Assembly: GCA_949130485.1 (NCBI GenBank)
Contig: OX422185.1
Span: 2,030,304 to 2,094,303 of the forward strand
Direction of reading: 5' to 3'
Source: Agelas oroides
Lineage: Eukaryota > Porifera > Demospongiae > Agelasida > Agelasidae
Length of the DNA stretch: 64,000 nucleotides
Shown: positions 38,240 through 58,052 of the stretch, in pieces
Numbering within the stretch: position 1 is the first letter of the stretch
How the letters are laid out: the number at the start of each line of letters is the position of its first letter
Notes under the pieces: generated by a model
The model's database searches: none
Seen by the model: the letters and a program-made list of their open reading frames with translations, nothing else
Told to the model about the DNA's origin: nothing
Translations under genes and position numbers: made by a program

Positions 38240-41200
38240 TCAGAAAGCTCCATAGTTAGGTTGTGGGATGTCCTCAAGCAGAGATTCACGAAATCTACTA
38301 AAATCTGCTTCCGCTGCAAGACTGTCTGCAGGTTCATTTGCAACTTGTACGATGTTTGGCCTGTTGAAGTCTAGGTCCTGTTTAGGCACCTTCATCCACA
38401 GCTTGGTGTGCCTCAGTTGCTGAAAGATGTGGTAGGCAAGGATGACAATGAATGTTGCAAGTGCTATGGAGACAGAGGTGTACCCAACTGCAAGCTGATT
38501 TCCTGTTGAGGGATTAACGTAGGAGGTGGCAGCAGCTAAGGTGATCAAGTTCAGAGCAAACGAACCTTCCAGGGCATCTAGACACCAGTTCCTGTAAACC
38601 CCACCACTGACCCAGGCCCACAGTTGAAGAAGCCCAGTTCCCAGTAGAATTACTAGCAGGTTAACACTAGGGTCCTGCTGAGGATTTAAAGCAAACACTA
38701 GAAGAAGAACAAAGCGAAGCACAAGCAGTAGTCCAGGCCAGTAGCGATGTTTTGCTTTGTAGGGAGCGTGGTATGAATCCATGAAAGGTTTCAGCCTGGC
38801 ACTGTTCACCCATGAGAAGAGCCTCAGGTGTGATATGGCCTGCAGCCACTGACCAAAGAGAAGCAAGAGAGTGTATGGAAGAAAGAGAAAAAGGAAGACA
38901 AGCACTGCCACTACAAAGAGTGGAATGTACTTGCCACTGAGATAGTCAATGTTTGCATCATACAGCCACACCATTCTGTTGTACGTTGGGTACTCGAGGT
39001 AGGTGATGTAAAATACACCAATCAACGTGCGAAGAATCTTTGCGTATGAGAGGAGGATGAGTGTTGCCAAGACAGAAACTGGGTTGTTGCCTAGCAGGTT
39101 TGCAAATCTGTGTGAGAAATGGCTAACAAGAACCATAAGTCCGACTAGCAACCAAATATATACAGGGAACACAAACTGCAGCCATGTTTTGCTGTAGGCA
39201 TCCATTCCATCATAGAAACATGTTTCTATACCAAAGTCAAGATTTAGCCATGCAATGAAGACTGAAAAACCATTAGTAGATTCCACTGGTAGAAAGATTG
39301 TACGATTGGCTCCAACAATATTGGCATAAAACACAAGGCCACTGAGTGTTCCTGTTGCCACCGTCAGTTTGCAGATGAGAAGCAAGAAGACCAGTGCCAC
39401 TCCCATCACTGCAAAAGGGATGAGTAAGGCAAGATGACTGTTGGTGCACTGCTTGCAATGAGAAGTGCCTAGTACCAGACTGTAACCTTTCTTGCAAGCT
39501 CCACACAAGAGGTCTGACCTGTATTGCGCACACTGAATGTCTGTGTTGTTTAGGGAAAAGATCACTGTTTGAGAGACACAGTAGTCAAAGGGGCAGAGTG
39601 GGTTGAGAATTAGTCCATGAGATTGATCATCATACCCAACCCAAAACTGCTGGCCTGAGTCGCGTGTTATGTTTCCTACTCCATTTGTTATAGTGCATTT
39701 ATGTTTACCAGTGTATTGTGCAAGTCTTGGCTCACAGACACATGATTTTTCTGACAGAGAGAGGTTAAATCCAGGTGGGCAGGTCTGATTTAAGCTCACT
39801 GAAATATATAGTGTGTTTGTGTCGGCAGCAAAAACAACTGAACACGGGCTATCATCTGGATGCAACTCTATGTCCACATGCTGAGACAGTGAAAGCACAG
39901 TGTAGTTCAGCTTGGTGCACGTGTTGTTTGCTGTTTGGAGGTGTTGAGAATCTGGGAGGTGGCCTGGGTTGGAGCCTTGGTCTATGATACTAACCACTCC
40001 ACTGGGAACTGTTCCATGTCTTTGTCCAACTGCAACCACAGAAACTTGAAATGTTTCACCAGGATATACCTTGCGTGGAAACTCCTCACTGCAGTCTGGA
40101 AGATTATTTTCACACAGGCATATTTGAAGTGGGTCTGAGGAAATGTTTGAAGTTGTGTTGTAATCAGTATCATTGCTGTAGACTATCATGTCAAACACTT
40201 CACCAGAGCTGTGTGACTCCAGGCCATGAGTGAGTTTGCAGTTATCTATTGCACCACCATATAACACACTTCCTGCAGTATCAGCAGAGTTGTCCTTGAA
40301 AACAAGTTGGACATCAACACCATTGGACAGATTCTGGCCAGGGAGTTGAAAGAAGCATTCTTGTTTTGGTCCATATGGACCTGGTAAACTACAGTAACTT
40401 GGAGTAGGGCTAGCATCACAAACATAGATAGCTCCTCCTAAACCTGCATTGTTGTTGTATTAGGCAAAATGGAGAAAGTGGATATTAGTCCCATAAATAC
40501 TCCTCCACCAAAATTTTGTTCATTGATTGAGTTCACTCCTTTCCCATAGTGTCCATTGTTAGTGAAGTAAACAGTTCCATTGATTGTCAGTGTATTGTTT
40601 ATGGTTGTCATGATAGCTCCACCTATAAGTGCTGAGTTATTGATAAAGTGACTGGTTCCATTGAAGCTAAGTACAGTATTGCTAGTAGCAATTGCACCAC
40701 CACCTGCACCTGCTGCTGAGTTGTTGATGAAGTTGTTGGCTCCATTGAAATTAAGTACAATATTGTATTCTGTGTAGATTGCACCACCCTCAATTACAGC
40801 GGAGTTGTTGATGAAGTTGTTGGTCCCGCTGAAGCTAAGTAAAGTATTGTTTGATGTGTAGATTGCACCACCCCAGATTGCTGAGTTGTTGATAAAGTTG
40901 TTGGTCCCGCTGAAGCTAAGTACAATATTTTTTAATGTGACTATTGCACCACCACCAACTGGATAACCACCAAATGGGCATTGTCCAGAGGTTGCACTAT
41001 TATCAAGGAAGGTTGTGTTCCCAGTGAATGTTAGGTTGCTATTGACAGCAATGATAGCACCTCCTAGTAAAATGTTACCACAGGCTCTGTTATGTTTGAA
41101 CTCACTGTTCCCTGTTAGAGTGATGTCAGTGTTATTCACTACAAGTGCAGTGCCAGTGTTGCTATGGAAGGAACAGTTAACTAGTTCAGTATATTGTGTA

Positions 41201-41664
41201 GACTGTAAATCCAGGACTGCGTAGACAGGAGCTGAAGGAAAACCAGGTACAGTAATAGCATATCTCAACAGTCTGCTGCAAGAGGTAAAAGCTAACGAAT
41301 ACATTTTCAACTCCATCATATTTGTGAAGCTGAGGCCAACTGGCCCACTGCAAACAACTGTTGCTCTGTTGCCTGAGGAAAACTCTCCACACATCATCAA
41401 CCTGGTTACATTGGAAACTGTGATACTCATGTTGAGAACATGGTCACCTGGCAAGAACACCATAGTGGTGTTGGAGGTAAAATACAGTCCAGCTTCATGT
41501 GCATACTCAGAGAGTGTGGTGCAGTTGGTTGAATTGTGAGGGCAGGATGAGCATGAAGTGGCAGTGGGTGTGACACAGTACACATTCTCAGCAGAGCAGT
41601 AGGAGAGGGTGCTAATGAGCAGTGCTGCCACAATGGCAATAAATGGTGTTGACTGAGCCATCAT
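38240..41664 (-). CDS. Beta-helix/polytopic membrane protein, copy A (frame-interrupted)
   Basis: Two adjoining frames, 40438-41664 (408 residues, with the start and signal peptide) and 38240-40437 (C-terminal part), line up end to end with the intact 1158-residue paralogue at 52923-56399. A 16-bp deletion relative to that copy, near 40446-40460, shifts the frame and ends the first part after SILPNTT. The N-terminal ectodomain has a signal peptide, paired cysteines and about seven GGAI..N..L.F.G..NFINNSA units typical of right-handed beta-helix or polymorphic-membrane-protein folds. A cysteine-rich linker follows (CPPGFNLS, CVCEPRLAQYTGKHKC, CGACKKGYSL), then about nine membrane segments and a cytoplasmic tail of about 80 residues ending QPNYGAF. 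The tail differs completely from copy B. The role is not known; a cell-surface receptor or adhesion protein is inferred. The break could be real or an assembly error. Confidence 0.8.
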
Positions 41665-43983
41665 ATGTAGGAATTACTGCAGAAAAGCATTTATATCAGC
41701 CCTGATATAAGTATACTAACACTGATTGTTAAAAATGTATATGTCAACATCAAAAGGTGGGTCTTTGGATTCTGATAGCTGCTATTCATGTTACTTGCTG
41801 GTCAAGAGAGAGGGGGGTCACTCCCATATGCCATGTAGTACCACATTCAAGATCTTGACCATCAATTTTCCATTGTTGCACAATTTTGAGTCTTGACCAT
41901 CTACCATGCATGACCTTTGACCCCTTTGTATCTCACATGTTGTGAACACAAACAACTACAATATGGCACTTGACTACAGGGCATATAGAAGTGAACCCCA
42001 CTTGGTCAGAGACAAGATCAGAAGTAAAGTCTCATGTATATAGTCAGACTCTCACTGGAAGAGGCATGAGACACAATATGGATGTGACTGGTACCTTTAC
42101 GATGTATACCTTCCACTAGTGCACAACCATTAAATGTACCTTTCAAGATAGGTGAACACAGCATACAGGAACAGGATCGTTGGAACTCAGAGTAGAGCAA
42201 CAGATTGACTTTAGGTAGCTGCAGTCACACTGCATGCGAAGTTATCCTGGCAGGTGCTATCCTTACTCTAAGAGTCAGCTGACTTCCTGTGGTTCTCAAT
42301 ACTTGTGTAAACATGAGTAAAACACAAACACCACATGATGTGACCTGCAATGAATATGGTTAGTGGGGAAGTGCCCACAGAACTGTAGCCCTTGGAAAGT
42401 CCAAAATGACATCATAATAACTGATGATTACAGCAGCCCCAAGATGCATGGATCTGCAAAGAATATAAAAGTGATGCTTCATCCCTCATGTATTTACTAC
42501 CGTTTCCATGGCAACATGATTTACATGTAGCTATATACCACTGAGCTCCAACTCCATATCTCAGTGTTGAGCTGGTGGCTCATGAGTTCAATTGGCAGCT
42601 ACCTTCTTTTATCTCTACTTTGCCTTGTATCTTTTAATTTCCAGCTGAAGTGTGAAGATTTCCTTAATAATCCTCTGATCAACAGTGGTATATCAAAAAT
42701 CTCCCTGCCTAGTCACATTCACACTAGTCTGGTACGGTTTTCCACATGCCGGGTTCAAGGGACATTCACACAAACCACCTCCTGTCAGCATGCAGTCTAA
42801 CACCAAGTGCCACCAATTCTTCAAGTCAATGTTCACATCAGTTTTGTTTACAACCATGCAATAAACCAAACCTATCCCTATCAGTCTAGTCTGGCAACAA
42901 CACTAAAATAATGCTACACACTATCACCAATTATTCTTCTTATTCTTAAGGTCAAAGTTCAGATATCACAGTCTCCATGCAAAATGGCATGGAAGGAAAT
43001 GCATGACGTAAACTATTGGGGAAGAAGGGGGAGAGGGAGTGAAATCCTTTGGTATGGTATATCCCTTTCCACCTCTACATGATCAACACACAGTCGGTAC
43101 ACTTACCTGGTTGGTGAACATGTATATATCACTGAGCTGGACAGCTGGCTTCTTCTAGGCTTGTCATGAATCTAACGGCTCCTTCTAGGCTTGTCATGAA
43201 TCTAACTGTACATGTGTGAGTGTGTGTAGGAAGAGGGAAGGAGTGAGGGGAAAACATATATATACAGCCAAATAAATGTATAACTGAATACCATAGTAAT
43301 TATCTCAATTGGGTGTCAACTATGACGTACAGACCTGCCTCCTACATTGAGAAACCACTGACAGCTACTGGTTCTCATTCTTTAGTATTTCACCGATGGT
43401 TGTCATTCTCTGAACAACAGTTAGAAACTACCCTTGGCTTAGATACAAGCGCTTCGCTGGAGGAAATGCCCTAGGATAGGCAAAATATAGCTAGGCAAGG
43501 GTTCTTGTACAGGGAGAGCTTTCACCCTGAGGTAGAAGCTTCTGTTCTAGGACAGAGTTTCCATGGGGGGATAACATCCTTAGAACAGAATCTTCCCTGG
43601 AACTACTGTCCAGAGGTAGGCCTTGTCCTGTGACACTGGCATTCATCAGAAGATCCAGCCATACACTGTTTTTCAATAGGTCAACACAATCTACATAACT
43701 TCTACTTACAGTTAACTGTCATTTAGAGTCACCCACTATAACATGAGGTATGGGGGCCCCAATCTCACAAGGGGGGCCTCAAAATGTTAATATATTAGGG
43801 CCCCATGGCGCCCCAAAATGGGGGGAGGGCCCTGGAATCCAGCCCCACCCCCTTAGATCCTCTTGACTTGGGGGCTTAGGAGTGACACTATACTAACTAT
43901 ACTATACTAGATCCATATTCATGTGCATGGTTACCGACTGCACTAGTTAAAATACTGCATTCGAAGGTCTGACGGAGCTATAA
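41665..43983. other. Divergent intergenic region between membrane protein A and the 2A-Death-ankyrin gene
   Basis: This 2.3-kb head-to-head spacer has no convincing exon. It contains a 30-bp tandem duplication (43147-43206, unit ending aggcttgtcatgaatctaac), a GC-rich ggggcccc-type patch (43750-43860), and the TATA-like box next to the downstream gene. Promoters of both flanking genes should lie here. Confidence 0.6.
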
Positions 43984-43985
43984 AT
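43979..43985 (+). promoter_or_regulatory. TATA-like box overlapping the first ATG of the 2A gene
   Basis: TATAAAT at 43979-43985 contains the first base pair of the upstream-most in-frame ATG (43984). If it works as a TATA box, transcription would start near 44010. Translation would then have to begin at ATG 44107 or 44140, both in frame. Confidence 0.35.
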
Positions 43986-46900
43986 GGGGATCGATCTCGC
44001 TACGTGGCGTGGTCGAGTCGGACTCAACTACTGTCGCCAGTCTGGATACGCCTGCGGTTCGTTTCCGATCCGGTGGAGGGCGGCAAGATGGGGGGTGGGA
44101 GAGGTGATGAACAGCACACCTATTCTGCTCCAGGGCTGCATGGCGGTCGTCTCCCTGTCACTGATACTGGGATATCGGTTCCGCAGGCTTCCCACTGGGA
44201 GGTGTGGGTGTGGCAAGGTGTATCGTCCCAAGTTGAGAGGTAGCTCTGTCCCGAGTGCGGAGGTCAGAGAGATCGCGAGTCTGGGCATTGTTGGGGTGTG
44301 CTTATTGCTGGGGGTGTGTGCAGTGGTGCTGACGCTACTGCTGCTGGCAGGAGATGTGGAGAGAAATCCTGGCCCTACAGGAAAAGGTGATAATAACTGC
44401 TATTTTCAAAGAGTAGCTTGTCTCTTGTAGAAACATTTGCAGACAGAATCAAGAGGAGTTATTCAGCTCTTAAAAATATGCTGATCTTGATCCTGCTCAC
44501 AAACATGCTTCTGTGCAAATACTTCTATAGGTGACACATTAGTGCCGCCCCCTTTTATTGGCCCAAGTAACCTGCTAGTTTTAGTGTAGCTTGCTAGTAT
44601 AATTTGAAACTAATATTGATAATTTGATTGTTCTGCTACTTGAGCTGTACTTACTTTAAATGCTGTAAATTTTCTTATGATTGTGAGCAAGTATTGTAAT
44701 GGTTCACGAGGCACATGATGTGCAAGTGAATCTCAAAGTTGGAAAAACAAACCCAAGCAGTTTACATATCACCACTACCATCACTCTTGAAGTTATCGAC
44801 CACCACTGTAAATGCCTCTCTGAAGTTGCATAAGGCAAGCCAAGCAAATCTCACATTACTAGAGTATTTGCAGACGCAAGAGGGGGCGTGAGCAGGAACA
44901 AAAGGCTGTACATGGTGCGTGCAAGAGTAAGGGAACATGGAGTGACTGTACCCAGGACAATCCTGACATTAATGACTTTTTTTGCTCTAATAACAAACAC
45001 CATGATGCTCAAGAATGTAGCTAATTTGTTCTTGTGTATTTGTGATCACCTCACTCAAGCTCCTCATGAGCAGATATTCGCTTTGTGTACTTGTATGCCA
45101 GACAAGGGGTGAAACCAAATACAATATTCATATTGTTAGCCTATTCATGTATAGAGAGTAGTAGTATTTGGCAAGAATATATTCAGGGAATAGGAGCCAT
45201 TCATCGTATGACAAGGCCTGCTGGATCCATTTTTATAGTGAAACCTCTCTAATATAGACACTGTTGCGACCAAAATATTTGTCCTGACTATAATTATACT
45301 ACAAAGTTGTGACTAGTTCAAGTGTCCCAATAAGCAAGCCATCATAGAAGGGTTAGGGTTAGGGTTTAAGAAGGGTTCCAGTAATAATAAACAACTCATA
45401 ATAACTAGAATTGCGAGTGCACTATGTAGTAGTTCTTGTATAACAACAAGGACAATATGCTGGATATCGCCATAGCTATGACGTAAAGCCCTCATGCCAA
45501 TATCTGCCCTTTTCCACTCTTACGATATAAAGATAATTTCTTGCATGAATTCATTACCTATGATGTCATTGCTTAGTCTGATAAGGCTATTGTTGTTGGC
45601 TGGTTTTTGACAACCTAGACAAGTTTTTGAGTGATGATTTTGTTGCTGAAGCAGTGACCCACTTGTGTTTTTGCTTGGCAAAACTGAAGATCATTGTGCC
45701 TGATTCAATGCGTAAGTGAGGTTTGTTGTTTGGAAAGCTGAAAAAAACAACAACAACAACAGGAAAGAGTGAAAAGCCAATGAATTTGAGCTTACTGAGC
45801 CTCTGCATGAATCAGAGGTAAAGTGGCAAGTGAAAAAGATACTCGATAAAGATTGGCTTCTACTGCCACTTAAAGCTAGCTGTGCAGCTTCTGTGCTTGG
45901 AGGTTGTGGTGACTGATAACAATGCCAGGTGACCCAGTGCCTGAAGAGCGTTTCGAGTGATGTGATGCTATTGAGCTGTTAAAAGGCAAGTGCAAGGTGG
46001 CAAGCTTACGTGTATGAGACATGCCGTGAAGACAGGAAGCCATTCCCTTTCTGGTCGATTGCTCACAAGCCTTCAGTACTAATGTAGAGTTTTGCACAAT
46101 AAAAATGCCGGCTCACGAGTGCTTTGCTGTGATTTGCATGACTGTGTAAGTCTTCTCTTGAAGTTTACATCCCACAAAACAAATTGCCGATTAGATACCT
46201 TAGGCTGCATGCATCTGATTATCAATTTGATATAGTCCTGTCAGCTGTGCTGCATATCATATATGGCACTGTCAAATGAACAATATGCTTGATAGCAGCA
46301 TACCCAGGTCCTTTTATCCACCCACACACCATTCAAGGAATGATAATATTATTTCGTGATTTCGACAATATTAGTCATGACTTGTGAATTGCACATTCTT
46401 GAGAGGAGCTGAACTGTAGTGAAGTTCTTATATCACTTCAAGTAGGAGCTAGAGTGGAGTTGGAGGTGTAGGAAACTTCATTCTCTGTAGGCAAGTTCTT
46501 GTAGCTTGCCGCAGTCTCCCTGGTAGGTTTTGTATAGTTACTCTGTGGCTACATTCATAAAGTAGAAATGCAACTTTAACCTGCACAACACAGTTAGCGG
46601 TCTTGTGCTAGGGAAGTAAGGGAACTCATGTTCAGAACTGTAGCAGGGTATACTGTTAATTGTTCTCCATGTAGGATTAGATCAGGTGGATAAGGTGCTC
46701 CCCACTGTGGATGGTTCTCCATTAGGTTAGTCAAAGTAATACCTTTGGTTGAGAAAGATGTGCATATTATCTCCTCTGAGTGACAATGCAATCTTGGCTT
46801 ATTTCATTGTGTCCAACATCACTATATACTTCCTGACAGGAGAAGATGATTACTTTGATATACTGACAGAGATGATGCCAATTGCTGGCTTTTGGAAGGC

Positions 46901-49900
46901 CATTGGTAGAGGCCTCCGAATTGACTCTGGACGTCTGGACCTGATTCAAGAAAGCAATCCTGGGAAACCCAGAGAATGTTTGTCGGAGGTGCTTACGGGC
47001 TGGCTCAAAAGAAACTACAATGTGGGGAGATTTGGTGAACCAACATGGCGAGCTGTGGTGAAAGTAGTAGCACACCCTGCAGCTGGAGACAATTGTGGGC
47101 TTGCCCTGAGCATTGCTCGGAAACATTCAGGTACCAGTGTTTGAATGTGTTTGAATACGTAGAAGTACATTTACCTATATATGGTATGAATAGCATATAC
47201 ACATAATAGCTACAATCTTGGTGACTTCCCACTAATGAATGTTTGAAGCTGAATGGACTGCTAACAGCATTGCTCTGTCTCTTACCTCACCTACCTAGCT
47301 ACAGGGGTTTCAGCAGCAGCTCCTCAAACCACCAGACAAACTCCCGTCCCATCAGATGATGTGTTCACTTCCGAAGGAGCTGTTGTCAGACCCAGGAAGA
47401 GAGAGAGATCTGAAAGGCCATCGTTTGGGTGTGGGTGTGGCAACTGCACATTTCTTAGTTACATTGAAAATGGCTGCCCACATCCCATTCCCAAAACTAC
47501 CTCATTCCCATGTCTCAATGTGAGTAGACTTACCCATGAACAACAGCAAGAACTTAGAAGTAGGCTGCGTGTGGAATCACAAGAAATAATGATTAGATTC
47601 CAGCGACTTTTATCCACTGTCTACGAGTCACTGTGTGAGCAAAAAATTCCTGTGAACAAGCTAGTCACCCACCTCTTGTCCCTGGGTGCATTTGACCCAG
47701 TCTCCAAGGATTCTCAGAAGCCACTACTGAAAACCTTCTTCCAAGAACTTCGGAACACAGAAAGTATTGAAGATGTGTTGTGGGTTATTAGAGACTACTT
47801 TTCTTTCTTCAACTATCACGTGATTGAACACATTGTTAATGGAGTTGGTACAGCCCAGGACAAAGATGAGCTTCAGAACTACAAGAAAGATTTTCATCAA
47901 TATTCAAAACGTAGAATTTTTGAATGTCCCCCAATCTATGGGCCTATGAGTGATGCTGATCATGCCGTTTTAGATTTGAAAGTAGACTCAGCATTTGAAC
48001 AATTCACTGTGGAAGAGCTAGACAATTTTCGATACAGACTTAGTAGAATATTCTGTGTTTCACCACAAAGTGTTTTACGTCTCTGTCGAGTAGAAGAAGG
48101 ATGTTTGCAGCTCACCTTCCAGGTGCCCTCATTTGTGCAGCAGGAGATATTTCCACTGTCAAGTGAGCAGGAGAGGGCCCTGGAAGCAGAGGGTGTGATC
48201 AGGTTGACATGTGGAGACTACCAGTTTCCTACCAAGGTTTGTAGTTACTGTGCAGTCACATGTCATGTATGGGATCTTGTATAGTAAACACTTCTCCACC
48301 AGGAGAGAAGCCTTGCTGAATGTTTCCTCTTCCTCTTGATGAGTGGCTGTTGGGTGTGTGACCAACTTACCTATTATTACAGCTGGTGGTTACCTGGTGG
48401 TTGTAACTCAGTGGTCTGAGCACTGACTGCTCAAGCCAGAGGTTCAATCCTCAGCAACTGCTAGCTATTCAGATCTGTTTTGGCATATATCATCAATAAT
48501 GTTCCTTAATTCCTAGGGACATGAGAATGAATCCGAACTAGAAGACACTGGTAAGTCTGGAATGTTGTACTGACTTTGAATTTTATGCTGTGTTCACTGT
48601 AGACATCTAGTTGCATTCCTTTGGCCACTAGAAGTACAAATAAATGGTTAAATTGTGGGCGGTTCAAGTAAAATTCAAACTTTATGTCCTATGACTCAAG
48701 TTCTATTAAAATTGAGGTTTACAGTAATGGAAAGACTCACATGCAGGCTATTGAAGTTGCTTTTCTTCATCTACAAATGTGCAGGTATATTACTAACTAG
48801 TATATATTACCCAGTGGGTGTTAGCCACACCCTCCTTAATTGGCACGTGATTCTATGAATATTTCACTTCAACCACTCACATTGTGCTACAAAGAAATGC
48901 AATCTATTTACAGTACTTGCATATTGCTTTTCCCTTTAAGATTCTGTTGCAGAACTGAAGGATCCAGTGTTTCAGAAAACACATGACATTGATGCTGACT
49001 CTGCCATGGGGGTCAGTATTGTCACAGATGACACATGGTTTTCGGATAATGAAGAGGTCAGTGAGTGTTTATGTATACCTTATGCATTTGTATCCGCTGC
49101 AGTTTGCAGTGTTATGTGTTCTGGAGCCTGCTTTTTAAAGTCCTTTAGTGTGCTGTCATGAACAACTTTGAACCTGAATCTTTCCATGAGCAGATCTGCG
49201 GGCTCGGCTTTTTCTCATGAATGTACATACAACTCCTTTTGTTTACATGCACACACAGGTATTGATTTCCATGGTATTGAAGCATTATGGTACTTGATTA
49301 CTGAAGAAATGGCCAGTGGCATTTCAAATTAACATGAGTACTTAACCTCCAGGCAAGGTCCTTGTTATTGTGAAGTCTAAGTGCTTTCATTGGGCATCAT
49401 AATTTGCCTTTGTAAGTGATTATAAATTTTATTGATTTGAACTACAATACAGGACATTTTGTTTAATGAGCTAGATGAACTGGATGAGGAATTTGAGGGA
49501 TCACTTCAGATATCTAGTGTACAAAATATACATGTTGCTGCCAGGAGAGGGGATCTGGAGACTGTCAGGTTTCTTGTAGATAAAGAGCGTCAAAATCCAC
49601 TTCAGAAAGACCAATATGGAAATACTGCTCTTCATGCAGCTGCACAGGGAGGAAGCTTAGATGTGCTCAAGTATTTCATCAATCAGAAAGATTGTAACCC
49701 TGCATGTCTAGGTTATCTTGGTGGAACGCCACTTCATGTAGCTACTGAGCATGACTGTTTCGATGTCATCAAGTATCTAGTTATTGAGCAGCAAGTAGAA
49801 CCTCTGTGTCAGGATGAGGGCGGAGTGACTCCATTACACATCAGTTCTGAAAGAGGTTGTCTCAACATTGTCAAATTTTTTACAGAGGAGATTGAAAAGT

Positions 49901-50751
49901 ACGAACCAATGAAGGACCTCATGCTTTCACTGACAACAAAGAAGAAGAGCACTCCATTACACTTCGCTGCACTGAATGGCCACATAGACATACTTCGATT
50001 CTTCATCACTGATCTGAAATGTAGTCCAAACATTTCAGGCATGTTTGGTCATATCCCTCTTCTCTATGCTGCTGAGGGAGGTCATCTGCACGTTATGAAG
50101 TATTTGATTGATGAACAAGGGTGTGACCCATCATGTTTGGATGTAAACAAAAGTACACCACTTCACCTTGCCACATTCAAGGGACATTCAGACATTGTGG
50201 AGTTCCTTACCTTGAAAAAGAACTGTAATCCAACATCTAGAAGCTCTTATGGTAGCACTCCCATGCAATGGTCTGCAATGTATGGCCACTTGGAAATACT
50301 GAAATTTTTCATAACTGATCTAAAGTGTAGTCCAAATTTTCCAGGCCAGTATAGCCGTACCCCTCTACATAGTGCTGCTGAGGGAGGTCATCTGCACATT
50401 ATGAAGTATTTGATTGATGAACAAGGATGTGAACCATCATGTTTTGATAGAAACAAACAAACACCACTTCATCGTGCTGCATACAATGGACATTTAGATA
50501 TTGTGAAATTCCTCACCTTAGAAAAACACTGCAATCCAAATCAAAGAGATATTTGGAAGAACACTTCTCTCCATTTTGCCGCAGTAAATGGCAACCTACA
50601 AGTGGTTCAGTTTCTTGTTGAGAAGCTTAAATGTTCTTTAAACCTAAGGGGGCTGTATAATGAAACTCCTCAACAGTTGGCTGAAAGGAAGGGACATGTC
50701 GATGTGGCTCTCTATTTACAAAGGTTTCAGCATTCAACTGACCTGCAGTAA
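43984..50751 (+). CDS. 2A-leader, Death domain, CGCGNC module, ankyrin-repeat protein
   Basis: Six exons with matching phases and GT-AG introns: 43984-44386, 46840-47130, 47299-48236, 48517-48550, 48941-49056, 49453-50751 (1026 residues from the first ATG). Exon 1 has two hydrophobic stretches, the second running straight into LLLLAGDVERNPGP, a class 2A StopGo motif. Exon 2 is a Death domain (FWKAIGRGLRIDSGRLDLIQ ... LTGWLKRNY ... TWRAVVKVV). Exon 3 begins with CGCGNC...NGCPHPIP and continues as an unnamed alpha-rich module that I recall from other sponge proteins. The two small exons are acidic linkers. Exon 6 carries 12 ankyrin repeats (TPLH motifs), with repeats 5-7 copied as 8-10. Death plus ankyrin domains point to an innate-immune or cell-death adaptor in the cytosol. 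During translation the 2A would separate a leader of about 90-130 residues. The start codon is uncertain: 43984, 44107 or 44140. Confidence 0.85.
44281..44376 (+). other. Hydrophobic segment plus 2A (StopGo) peptide
   Basis: Codons 44281-44352 encode a hydrophobic run (LGIVGVCLLLGVCAVVLTLL, then LLAG). Codons 44353-44376 encode D-V-E-R-N-P-G-P, matching the D(V/I)ExNPGP consensus exactly. The family mechanism releases the chain between G (44371-44373) and P (44374-44376). Placement near the N-terminus, directly after a hydrophobic helix, is as reported for 2A signal sequences in sea urchin NLR-type genes. Confidence 0.88.
44387..46839 (+). other. Intron 1 of the 2A-Death-ankyrin gene
   Basis: This 2.45-kb intron separates the 2A leader exon from the Death-domain exon. 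It contains a Tigger/pogo-like end (tagtgaaacctctctaatat at 45236-45255) and a short (TTAGGG)n-like run at 45350-45367. No additional exon was recognised. A phase-1 join on both sides means the leader exon is a portable unit. Confidence 0.7.
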
Positions 50752-52922: not shown

Positions 52923-55900
52923 CTAGTTAATCGAACCATAAGTATACACAGGTATTAGCCTTCTCAGAGCCCCTTCTGTTGGCTCAGCAGTGGTGTGTCC
53001 TCGTGGAGTGTAGAATGGTGGTTCATACTCTTCTGGGTTTATCAGGCGGTCTGGCAGGGAGCCGGTAAGAGATGTCATGTCTGTTTCAGCTTCATTCCTG
53101 ATTGCTTCTGTCATAGCTGTGCACTTCCTTTTTAGGTCATGAATGATACCCATCACACTCGCCAGCTGAAAGACAAGGATTCCCATGAAAGTTGCAAGTG
53201 CTATGGAGACAGAGATGTACCCAACTGGAAGCTGATTTCCTTGTGAGAGTTTGACAAAGAAAGTAGCTCCAACCAGAATGATCAAGTTGAGAGCAAATGA
53301 GCATTCCAGGCCATTTAGACACCAGCTCCTGTAAACGCCGCCACTGACCCAGGCCCATGCTACAAGAAAAGCAGTTGTCACTACAATTGCTAACAAGTTA
53401 ACACTGGGATCTTGCTGAGGATTTAAAGCTACTACTAAGAGCAGAACAAAGCGAAGCACAAGCAACAGCCCAGGCCAATAGCGATGTTTTGCTTTGTAGG
53501 GAGCATAGTATGCATCCATGAAAGGTTTCAGTCTGGCACTGTTGACCCATGAGAAGAGCCTCAGGTGTGATATGGCCTGTAGCCACTGACCAAAGAGAAG
53601 CAAGAGAGTGTAAGGAAGAAAGAGGAAGAGGAAGACAAGCACTGCCACCAGAAAGAGTGGAATGTGTTTGCCACTGATATAGTCAATGTTTGCATCATAT
53701 AGCCACACTCCTCTGTTGTATGTTGGATATTCAAGGTAGGTGATGTAAAATACAGCAATCAACGTCCGAAGGAACTTTGTATATGAGAGGAGGATGAGAG
53801 TTGCCAAGACTGAAACTGGGTTGTTGCCAAGCAGATTTGCAAATCTGTGTGAGAAATGGCTAACAAGAACCATGAGTCCGACTAGCACCCAAATATATAC
53901 AGGGAACACAAACTGCAGCCATGTTTTGCTGTAGGCATCCATTCCATCATAGAAACATGTTTCAATACCAAAGTCAAGGTTTAGCCATGCGATGAAGACT
54001 GAGAAAGCATCAGTAGATTCCACTGGTAGAAAGATGGTACGATTAGGTCCAACAATATTGGCATAGAACACTAGGCCACTGAGTGTTCCTGTTGCCACTG
54101 TCAGTTTGCAAACAAGGAGCAAGAAGACCAGTGCTACTCCCATCACTGCAAAAAGAATGAGTAAGGCAAGATGGCTGTTGGTGCACTGCTTGCAGTGAGA
54201 AGTGCCTAGTAACAAACTGTAACCTTTCTCACAAGCTCCGCACAAGAGGCCTGACCTGTTGTGTGCACACTGCATGTTCGTGTTGTTGAGGGAAAAGTTC
54301 ACTGCTCTCAAGACACAGTAGTCAAAGGGGCAGAGTGAATTCAGAATTAGCCCATGAGATTGGTCATCATACCCAACCCAAAACTGCTTGCCTGAATCAC
54401 GTGTTATGTTTCCTACTCCATTTGTTATAGTGCATTTATGTTTACCAGTGTATTGTGCAAGTCTTGGCTCACAGACACATGATTTTTCCTTTTCACAGAG
54501 GTTAAATCCAGGTGGGCAAGTCTGATTTAAGCTCACTGAAATATGTAGTGTTTTTGTGTCACTGGCAAAAACAACTGAACACGGGCTATCATCTGCATGC
54601 AAATCTATTTGCACGTACTGAGACAGTGAAAGCACAGTGTAGTTCAGTTTGGTGCACATGTTGTTTGCCTGTTGGAGGTGTTGAGAATCTGGGAGGTGAC
54701 CGGGGTTGAACCCTTGGTTTATGATACTAACCACTCGACTAGGAACTGTTCCATGTCTTTGTCCAACTGCAACCACAGAAACTTGAAATGTTTCACCAGG
54801 ATACACTGTGCGTGGCATTATATATACATTATCACTGCAGTCTGGAAGATTATGTTCACACAGGCATATGTGAAATGGGCCTGAAGAAATGTTCGAAGTT
54901 GTGTTGTAGTCAGTGTCGTTGTTGTGGACTATTATGTCAAACACTTTACCAGAGCTGTATGAGTCCAGGCCAGTGAGTTTGCAGTTATCTATTGCACCAC
55001 CATATAAGACACTACCTGCAGCATCAGCAGAGTTGTTCTTGAAAACAAGTTGGACATCAATACCATTGGACAGATTCTGGCCAGGAAGTTGAAAGAAGCA
55101 TTCTGCTTTTGGTCCATATGGACCAAGTAAAGTACAATAACTTGCAGTAGGGCTAACATCATTAACATAGATAGCTCCTCCTAAAGTTGCATGATTGTTC
55201 TCCCAGTACACAGTTGTGTTAGGCAAAATGGAGAAGGTGCCTTTTAGTCCCATAAATACTCCTCCACCAAAATTATATCCACTCACTCCTTTCCCATAGT
55301 GTCCATTGTTAGTGAAGTAAACAGTTCCATTGAATGTCAATGTGCTGTTTATGTTTGTCATGATAGCTCCACCCATAAGTGCTGAGTTATTGATAAAGTG
55401 ACTGGTTCCATTGAAGCCAAGTACAGTACTGTTAGCGGCAATTGCGCCACCAGTACCTGCTGAGTTGTTGATGAAGTTGTTGGCTCCATTGAAATTAAGT
55501 ACAGTATTGTATTCTGTGTAGATTGCACCACCCTCAATTACAGCGGAGTTGTTGATGAAATTGTTGGTTCCGCTGAGGCTAAGTACTGTATTATCTAATG
55601 TGTAGATTGCACCACCACTATAGTAAGCGGAGTTATTGATGAAGTTGTTGGTTCCGCTTAAGCTAAGTAGAGTATTCTTTAATGTGACTATTGCTCCACC
55701 ACCAAATGCATAACCTTCAAATTGTCCAGAGGTTGCACTATTATCAAGGAAGGTTGTGTTCCCAGTAAATGTTAGGTTGCTATTGGAAGCAACGATAGCA
55801 CCTCCTAGTACAATGATACCACACGCTCTGTTATGTGTGAACTCAGTGTTTCCTGCCAGAGTAATGTCGGTGTTATTCACTACAAGTGCAGTGCCATTGT

Positions 55901-56399
55901 TGCCATGGAAGGAACAGTTAACTAGTTCAGTATGTTGTGTAGATTGTAAATCTAGGACCGCATAGAAAGGAGCTAGAGGAAAATCAGGTACAGTAATAGC
56001 ATATCTCAAAAGTCTGCTGCAAGAGGTGAAAGCCAAAGAATCTATTTTGAACTCCACCATACTTGTAAAGCTGAGGCCAACTGACCCACTGCAAACAACT
56101 GTCACTCTGTTGCCTGAGGAAAACTCTCCACACATCGTCAACCTGGTTACATTGGAAACTGTGATACTCATATTGAGAGCATGGTCACCTGGCAAGAACA
56201 CCATAGTGGTGTTGGAGGTAAAGTACAGTCTAGCTTCTTGTGCATATTCAGAGAGTGTGGTGCAGTTGGCTGAATTGTGAGGGCAGGATGAGCATGAGGT
56301 GGCAGTGGGTGTGACACAGTACACATTCTCAGCAGAACAGTAGGAGAAAGTGTTAATGAGCAGTGCTGCCACAAGAACACATGCAGGCTGAAGCATCAT
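52923..56399 (-). CDS. Beta-helix/polytopic membrane protein, copy B (intact, single exon)
   Basis: An uninterrupted frame of 1158 residues. Residues 1-23 are a signal peptide. Residues 24-195 are a cysteine-paired N-terminal domain with many N-x-S/T sites. Residues 195-410 carry about eight GGAI/GGAIYT repeats with NNFINNSA turns, a right-handed beta-helix pattern like polymorphic membrane proteins. Residues 530-630 look like a beta-sandwich (VYPGETFQVSVVAVGQRHG). Residues 628-740 are cysteine-rich. About nine hydrophobic segments span 743-1087. The tail (1088-1158) is charged and ends VYTYGSIN. The architecture suggests a plasma-membrane receptor or adhesion protein with a large glycosylated ectodomain. 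It matches copy A closely up to the last membrane segment, and then the tails are unrelated. It is divergent from the ankyrin relic to its right. No enzyme motif was recognised. Confidence 0.88.
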   Translation of the reverse strand: MMLQPACVLVAALLINTFSYCSAENVYCVTPTATSCSSCPHNSANCTTLSEYAQEARLYFTSNTTMVFLPGDHALNMSITVSNVTRLTMCGEFSSGNRVTVVCSGSVGLSFTSMVEFKIDSLAFTSCSRLLRYAITVPDFPLAPFYAVLDLQSTQHTELVNCSFHGNNGTALVVNNTDITLAGNTEFTHNRACGIIVLGGAIVASNSNLTFTGNTTFLDNSATSGQFEGYAFGGGAIVTLKNTLLSLSGTNNFINNSAYYSGGAIYTLDNTVLSLSGTNNFINNSAVIEGGAIYTEYNTVLNFNGANNFINNSAGTGGAIAANSTVLGFNGTSHFINNSALMGGAIMTNINSTLTFNGTVYFTNNGHYGKGVSGYNFGGGVFMGLKGTFSILPNTTVYWENNHATLGGAIYVNDVSPTASYCTLLGPYGPKAECFFQLPGQNLSNGIDVQLVFKNNSADAAGSVLYGGAIDNCKLTGLDSYSSGKVFDIIVHNNDTDYNTTSNISSGPFHICLCEHNLPDCSDNVYIMPRTVYPGETFQVSVVAVGQRHGTVPSRVVSIINQGFNPGHLPDSQHLQQANNMCTKLNYTVLSLSQYVQIDLHADDSPCSVVFASDTKTLHISVSLNQTCPPGFNLCEKEKSCVCEPRLAQYTGKHKCTITNGVGNITRDSGKQFWVGYDDQSHGLILNSLCPFDYCVLRAVNFSLNNTNMQCAHNRSGLLCGACEKGYSLLLGTSHCKQCTNSHLALLILFAVMGVALVFLLLVCKLTVATGTLSGLVFYANIVGPNRTIFLPVESTDAFSVFIAWLNLDFGIETCFYDGMDAYSKTWLQFVFPVYIWVLVGLMVLVSHFSHRFANLLGNNPVSVLATLILLSYTKFLRTLIAVFYITYLEYPTYNRGVWLYDANIDYISGKHIPLFLVAVLVFLFLFLPYTLLLLFGQWLQAISHLRLFSWVNSARLKPFMDAYYAPYKAKHRYWPGLLLVLRFVLLLVVALNPQQDPSVNLLAIVVTTAFLVAWAWVSGGVYRSWCLNGLECSFALNLIILVGATFFVKLSQGNQLPVGYISVSIALATFMGILVFQLASVMGIIHDLKRKCTAMTEAIRNEAETDMTSLTGSLPDRLINPEEYEPPFYTPRGHTTAEPTEGALRRLIPVYTYGSIN

Positions 56400-57439
56400 C
56401 TGTTAAAATGACTGCAGAAAAATATTTATTACAATTTTGGTGTGCAAGAGTGTAAAATTATGTGGGAATATACACGTTCCTCATGGCTACTAGATACTCT
56501 CTGGTCTCAGAACGTTAGTCGTTATCTGAGTTTCTAACATAAGGTAATCAGTTAACTGGCAATTTTTAAGATATTTACAAGTAAGACTTATAGCCTGGGT
56601 TCAGACTTTATAAACAGTACTGGATATTGATTTACCTGGCTAAAATATGTGTGCATGTCTTTATTCACCCTGGTTGTCATACCAAACATTGATTGTTAGA
56701 CAAGTGTAGACTCACCTGCTTTTCAAGGCATGTGAGCACAGAAATCATGTGACTCAGCTGGATCAATTTTATTACAGCAAGCAACCAACAGTCAGACAGG
56801 CCACACTCACTGTTCACCAGCACCAATGTGTGAGAACAATGATTCTCTAATACTAATCCTTTTGCTCTTTGAACTCACCAACCGAAGTAGTTTTGTACTC
56901 AAACCTACCAATTGAAATTCAGCTTTACTGGGTATGATCAATACAATTCGTGGCTTCTGTTTAACTATACTGAGAAACTCATCAGATTATCAGCAAAAAT
57001 CCCTCACATCTGCAACTAGGGTGGTGACCACTTGTGGACTAAACAACCATTAAGATGTTGTGCTTCTAAGTTTTCAATTTCCTTGAATGGAGAAGCAGCT
57101 AGTAGTGGCCTGTATCTCAAATGATGATCTTGGGTATTGTGCAATAAAAAATTTTCTATGATGGACCAAGGCTTGAACCTTGATTTGAAAACTGAGACCC
57201 CTCTTACTACATAAAAATTGGGAGAGTTGTCTATTGAGATACAGAAATCAAACCTCAGCCATTTCATTTGCTGGCTAAAGTTCAAGCATGTCCCACCTCC
57301 TAAGGACCTACAACCTGCTGGTTAGGGGTGCGCGGATTATGCCGATATTGAAATGAGCATAGTAAGTATGCAAAAGCATGGATCATAATTCGAGCAGATT
57401 CTCTGAGTGTTAATTAAAGTTTTGTGGACACTTGGCCAC
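56400..57439. other. Spacer between membrane protein B and the ankyrin relic
   Basis: About 1 kb of AT-rich sequence without an exon. Neither a 2A leader nor a Death-domain exon was found here, unlike the equivalent 5-kb interval in the first unit. This suggests the duplicated unit lost them or never had them. Confidence 0.55.
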
Positions 57440-58052
57440 GTGGTGATTCTGTGTGGGGGATCTGGAGACTGTCATGTCTCTTGTAGATAAAGAGCGCCAA
57501 AATCCACTTAAGAAAGACAAATATGGAAATACTGCTCTTCATGCAGCTGCACAAATAGGAAGTTTAGACGTGCTCAAGTATTTCATCAATGAGAAACATT
57601 TTAACCCTGCATGTCTAGGTTATTGTGGGGGAACACCACTTCATGTAGCTACTGAACATGGCTGCTTTGATGTCATCAAGTATCTAATTATTGAGCAGCA
57701 AGCAGAGCCTTAGTCTCGGAGCCAGACCCTCATACGCAGAAGGCAGATGGACTCCACTACACCTTAGTTCTGAAAGAGGTCGTCTCAGCATTGGATACTT
57801 AGGTATTGTGGAATTTCTCACCTTAGTGAAACGCTGCAATTCAAATTAAAGAGATATTTGGAAGAACACTCCTCTCCATTTTGCCAGAGTAAATGGCAAC
57901 CTACAAGTGGTTCAGTTTCTTGCTGAGAAGCTTAAAAGTGTTGTTCTAACCTAAGAGGTGTGTATAATGCAATTCCTCATCAGTTGACTGAAAGCAAGGG
58001 ACATCTCAAAGTAGCTCTCTATTTACAGGAGTTTCAGCACTTCACTGAATAG
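57440..58052 (+). pseudogene. Ankyrin-repeat relic, duplicate of the 49453-50751 exon
   Basis: Starting GDLETVMSLVDKERQNPL, the first 85 or so codons match repeats 1-3 of the intact ankyrin exon almost residue for residue. A TAG then interrupts the frame near 57711. After a remnant of repeat 4 there is a large internal deletion, and matching resumes at repeats 10-12 (FLTLVKRCN, NTPLHFARVNGNLQVVQFL) with further stops. The Death, CGCGNC and 2A exons are absent upstream. This is a host-gene pseudogene from the tandem duplication. Confidence 0.85.

Follow-up and report, generated by a model that had tools for sequence, protein, structure and literature searches.

A StopGo/2A leader ahead of predicted Death-domain and ankyrin exons in the sponge Agelas oroides

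A 64,000-nucleotide stretch of the Agelas oroides genome (hereafter the window) contains an exact StopGo/2A core, DVERNPGP, upstream of exons that encode putative Death and ankyrin domains. 2A peptides are known in viruses and non-LTR retrotransposons (PMC4981915), and the question raised by this locus is whether the core belongs to an inserted element, to a small separate gene or to a host gene of which it forms the beginning. The reading preferred here, to which we assign a probability of roughly 0.78, is that the window holds an intact gene from a large family of host adaptors bearing Death domains, translation of which begins with a StopGo/2A leader; judged from its domains, this family is probably immune.

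Gene model in the window

A six-exon model, in which all borders are GT-AG and the phases fit, yields one open frame of 1024 residues with a single terminal stop. Its features are as follows.

43984..44386, + strand, 403 bases: exon 1, the leader (MGIDL start, WRGRVG motif, two hydrophobic segments and 2A)
44353..44376, + strand: 2A core DVERNPGP, with the predicted skip between G (residue 130) and P (residue 131)
44387, + strand: exon 1 donor, GT, phase 1
46840..47130, + strand: exon 2, predicted Death domain (FADD-like), from the family profile and gene model
47305..48236, + strand: exon 3, GCGCGNC cysteine motif, helical stretch and C-terminal RRM-like (TRADD-N-like) domain
48517..48550, + strand: exon 4, small linker exon, placed solely by its GT-AG borders and fitting phase
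48941..49056, + strand: exon 5, acidic linker exon, from the gene model; partly conserved in paralogs
49453..50751, + strand: exon 6, ankyrin repeats and stop codon, from the domain scan, motif count and gene model

A sequence-only reading of the window had proposed a host gene in which a 2A leader precedes Death and ankyrin exons, and the sequence supports such a gene, with the leader conserved and the exons in frame. Translation of 44281-44386 gives LGIVGVCLLLGVCAVVLTLLLLAGDVERNPGPTGK, confirming that DVERNPGP closes the first exon after a hydrophobic stretch; the start assigned to that exon, 44281, was too late. The ATG at 43984 (A at -3, G at +4) was taken as the start because the initial methionine is kept in 120 of 120 listed leader homologs (120 of 678) and because identity between two paralog groups, 0.83 in the first 45 coding nucleotides, drops to 0.27 in the 45 nucleotides upstream of the ATG. 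An alternative start at 44107 (MNSTP) was rejected, since MGIDL is conserved and homology ends at its ATG. The proposed junction of exon 1 with 46840 is upheld as a prediction, the donor at 44387 and an acceptor ending at 46839 joining the leader to the Death exon in frame within the open model. The leader, Death domain and exon 3 module also co-occur in one predicted protein, P0002, which was rejected as proof of splicing as it seems to read through intron sequence. The core ends at residue 131 of 1024, and the product is predicted to divide into a 130-residue leader and an 894-residue Death / cysteine plus TRADD-N-like / ankyrin protein with proline first.

The domain assignments proposed earlier held in part. 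The Death domain is supported by the family profile: PF00531 was matched at E≤0.1 by 20 of 23 aligned Death exons (best 1.9e-7), and a profile of these exons matched FADD structures at 1.5e-6; the window exon on its own is sub-threshold, with an E-value of 0.027, below Pfam's cut-off (nothing at 0.01 in the domain scan). The ankyrin identity of exon 6 stands, whereas the figure of 12 repeats is not firm, as the motif count comprises 10 clear cores and partial ones. The description of exon 3 as a cysteine module agrees with its GCGCGNC motif and was incomplete, having overlooked the RRM-like domain at the C-terminal end, which is probably TRADD-N on sub-threshold matches. A Foldseek search with the exon 3 module returned nothing at E≤0.001 from a weak query model (mean pLDDT 65.8), and neither NACHT nor LRR was detected at E≤0.01 in the exons scanned (all but exon 4).

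Several further elements were observed in the window. A telomere-like short run, gggttagggttagggttt, lies within intron 1 (45350-45367, + strand). An ankyrin fragment at 57447-57713 (+ strand), which resembles the initial repeats of exon 6 in sequence and has no 2A nearby in the window, is likely a partial duplicate. Chlamydia_PMP-type repeats and sub-threshold DUF7630 matches occur in two long loci, 38243-41673 (- strand) and 52926-56402 (- strand), the latter consisting of one ORF of 1159 residues that is hydrophobic in its C-terminal half.

The 2A core across the genome

The core at 44353-44376 is the one match to D.E.NPG in the six frames of the window. It has the form (D/G/C/N)(V/I)ExNPGP and is preceded by the leucine-rich hexapeptide LLLLAG. 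Leucine-rich motifs ending in (A/S/C)G before D occur in StopGo sequences, and one of them, motif 6, has been tested as active (PMC12846837); LLLLAG fits this motif class and thus counts toward a skipping reading. The genome holds a total of 179 exact 2A sites (58 + 66 + 55), whereas arithmetic with equal bases predicts about 0.2 occurrences of the degenerate 23-mer in 259 Mb; a reversed-pattern control across the genome gave 0 matches. An identical 23-mer was observed at five sites on four contigs (C1:12658760, C2:15755301, C3:14553507, C6:4736377 and C6:6417791), none with a Death partner, and these five are perhaps a transposable element family.

The 2A sites were compared with a list of Death exons composed of the best 150 of 521 and the best 150 of 736 candidates (298 without overlaps), from which true pairs may be missing. 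The Death exon lay downstream on the same strand in 55 pairs within 2 kb, 97 within 6 kb and 111 within 10 kb, as against 1, 2 and 8 upstream, respectively, and 0 on the opposite strand at every distance. Among the Death exons listed, one lies within 10 kb downstream of 107 of the 179 sites and none within 10 kb of the remaining 72. Position alone would account for about 17 of the 107 paired sites (mean 17.5, maximum 29 in 1000 local shifts), and 0 were obtained with strands flipped. For the 25 Death exons most like that of the window, a 2A site was found upstream within 6 kb in 17 and within 10 kb in 19. The window gene is thus one of about a hundred 2A-Death pairs in the genome.

In a profile scan of 34 fetched loci with 2A, 28 showed a Death domain downstream of the 2A and on its strand, the exceptions being L002, L015, L019, L020, L024 and L027; L031, L032 and L034 had been picked with their Death exon known, and the profile derives partly from the same loci. 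The gene model places the window 2A in frame with the downstream coding sequence, and in locus L035 the same holds without any splice: the sequence ..SLLLSGDVEVNPGP-LTSSDLKDIINSVWEAHAKWFHIG.. lies within one 286-residue ORF, in which the Death domain (PF00531, E 0.0027, sub-threshold) stands directly behind the 2A proline with no intron. At L027 5989-9768 (+ strand) and L028 3852-5822 (+ strand), a 2A leader is accompanied a few kb downstream by NACHT and COR-A or by COR-A alone, and 2A may also lead NLR/ROCO-like genes, judged by these domains.

Leader design and retention of the core

The leader of about 131 residues consists, in order, of MGIDL, WRGRVG, a first hydrophobic segment (residues 45-63), a basic/Cys linker, a second hydrophobic segment and AGDVERNPG. 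With hydropathy as the sole signal-sequence measure, the Kyte-Doolittle means of the two segments are 1.81 and 3.02. Leaders of the C3 and C1 types and that of L028 (the 3.37-Mb C3 leader) usually have an MGID start and W-R-x-R-(I/V)-G; in the C8 leader, L040, WRARIG is present but MGID is not. In each of these leaders one hydrophobic segment lies upstream and another leads into AGDVExNPGP (L040 by eye). MGID was not seen in L001-L003, L024-L027 or L035. The pattern TGGMGNGCNMGNATHGG.., too narrow for counting the WRARIG motif, matched 12 times (in part repeatedly at one site) compared with 4 times in the control. The leader frame is shifted in L018 and L030, and the upstream start differs in L011, L012 and L016. 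A second, degenerate VGSNPGPYTEYGKNSC stretch was observed in another ORF 200-300 bases past the 2A in L025 (8076-8327, - strand) and L026 (8076-8312, - strand), and is perhaps a decayed or alternative 2A exon.

Retention of the core was assessed by a core-blind search, in which leader residues 1-98 served as query, the 2A end was omitted and all 86 candidates were scored. This search identified 80 leader copies, 72 of which are followed on their own strand by an exact 2A no more than 300 nt away. The other eight comprise two with a single changed core residue (L032, DVARNPGP; L042, DMETNPGP) and six, L043-L048, with stops, a broken frame or another end. Among the 120 listed homologs, a count favoured by a search profile that includes the core, 115 have a canonical core, 2 have DVERHPGP and three have changed cores; histidine at this position (p16=H) is reported as >95% active in natural contexts, and N16H as modestly active in a foreign context (PMC12846837). 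The x of DVExNPGP varies among R, T, M and L and is the main variable position of the core in 11 leaders compared, most of which were found via the core. Mean pairwise identity in these 11 is 0.66 over residues 1-98, 0.54 in segment 2, 1.00 in AG and 0.91 in the core. The AG, which lies outside the site-search pattern, is thus invariant in the 11, and LL and AG before the core are nearly invariant in the 120 listed homologs.

A codon comparison gave pN/pS of 0.02 for AG and core in 14 C3-type leaders, against 0.47, 0.12, 0.62 and 1.22 elsewhere, and 0.14 in 10 C1-type leaders, against 0.28-0.64 elsewhere; the low core values are largely forced, because L032 is the sole locus in the comparison that was not picked up through the exact core. 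The approach to segment 1 is constrained as well in the C3 group, where its ten-codon windows likewise fall to a pN of 0. Since its loci had been picked by the exact core, the codon test was downgraded and the core-blind search put in its place.

Proposed mechanism and rival explanations

Under the preferred reading, the leader, from MGIDL and WRGRVG through segment 1, the basic/Cys linker and segment 2 to AGDVERNPG, would be translated first. At the G-P step the bond would usually not form, freeing the 130-residue leader, and translation would resume at the proline, leaving the 894-residue Death / TRADD-N-like / ankyrin protein free in the cytosol. Less often, or with the leader already at the ER translocon, the bond would form and the adaptor would be membrane-bound; we judge such a membrane-tethered cytosolic form at least as likely as the secretory fusion suggested earlier. 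Skipping at the window 2A is suggested by its likeness to active motifs and by the precedent of the sea urchin, where N-terminal 2As divide their product between the cytoplasm and the exocytic pathway, the active form leaving it in the cytoplasm and the inactive form sending it to the Golgi (PMC4981915). Splicing in vivo and two product locations are likewise what we infer.

A more speculative proposal, held with low confidence, is that this StopGo senses place. The ribosome tunnel accommodates about 35 residues, and segment 1 ends 68 residues short of the 2A end; it would thus be exposed before the 2A acts, and some ribosomes could be at the translocon when the 2A is reached. Free ribosomes would then skip and produce soluble adaptor, docked ones would read on and produce tethered adaptor, and the balance between the two across the whole Death-domain family would be governed by load or stress in the secretory pathway. 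In artificial polyproteins, the 2A reaction is inhibited when certain nascent chains engage the translocon (PMC2978324).

It is improbable that the leader serves solely as a membrane anchor or signal at the N-terminus, its 2A-like end being a non-skipping relic. The two hydrophobic segments agree with such a role, as does the freedom of segment 2 to vary in the C3 group (pN/pS 1.22), but an anchor has no need of NPGP, and the exact core persists in the 72 of 80 leaders found without it while x, which StopGo leaves free, varies; the constancy of the preceding AG, which the site search did not select, argues in the same direction. That the 2A exon is a retrotransposon- or virus-derived insertion lying near the gene rather than part of it is more improbable again: the known occurrence of 2A in such elements (PMC4981915) and the identical 23-mers on several contigs would suit an insertion, whereas the pairing with Death exons is strongly oriented (97, 2 and 0 within 6 kb), L035 holds 2A and Death in a single ORF, no reverse transcriptase/endonuclease or other retroelement domain was detected at E≤0.01 in the exons scanned (all but exon 4), and no leader relative was found in viral contigs (none of 36 pattern matches was confirmed). 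The exon may still descend ultimately from an element. The slightest chance attaches to exon 1 being read unspliced as a small separate gene ending ...TGKGDNNCYFQRVACLL, for which the frame is open to 44430; the tail beyond exon 1 differs between paralogs, a GT lies just past TGK(E)G in most C3-type loci shown, and L035 needs no splice at all.

Relation to known systems and significance

The gene resembles the sea-urchin NLRs termed SpNLR2A, in which an N-terminal 2A doubles as a hydrophobic signal ahead of multigene Death-bearing immune proteins; their leader has 26 residues (14 entries, Table 1) and is followed by Death-NACHT-LRR (PMC4981915), whereas the present leader, of about 131 residues, contains two hydrophobic segments and WRxR(I/V)G and precedes Death, TRADD-N-like and ankyrin domains. 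Viral StopGo/2A shares the AG-DVExNPGP core and leucine-rich hexapeptide but lies between polyprotein parts (PMC12846837), in contrast to the N-terminal position in a cellular gene. In Amphimedon, an NCOA6-clade TRADD-N expansion of hundreds of copies combines 1-3 Death-like domains, TRADD-N and a variable C-terminus, with ankyrin among the two commonest (PMC8195603); the window gene has the N-terminal Death-like domain and the ankyrin C-terminus, and differs in that its TRADD-N membership rests on sub-threshold matches. The text of that study contains 0 matches to NPGP, skipping or signal peptide (PMC8195603).

The architecture had been described as non-standard. Its parts are published, as Death, TRADD-N and ankyrin in sponges (PMC8195603) and as 2A with Death in sea-urchin NLRs (PMC4981915); the genome-scale union of a two-segment 2A leader with Death-TRADD-N-like-ankyrin is new as far as the literature was searched. 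No paper on 2A in sponges was found among the open-licence matches listed (best 12-25 of up to 4239), and the sponge papers that matched a 2A term were unrelated chance matches. A 2025 study by Rao in Cell Rep reportedly surveyed cellular proteomes for 2A, and genes of this kind may already be listed there. The combination of two known features in this genome is real, retained and genome-scale, and its leader is longer than that of the sea urchin.

Sponge genes with Death and ankyrin domains respond to microbial cues (PMC6208332). If skipping takes place, StopGo would be a routine part of a death-domain repertoire, and death-domain proteins may be made in two places from a single message. The putative membrane-bound NLRs described in sponges (PMC12909245) would become candidates for 2A leaders, and the purpose of cellular 2As would become a directly testable question.
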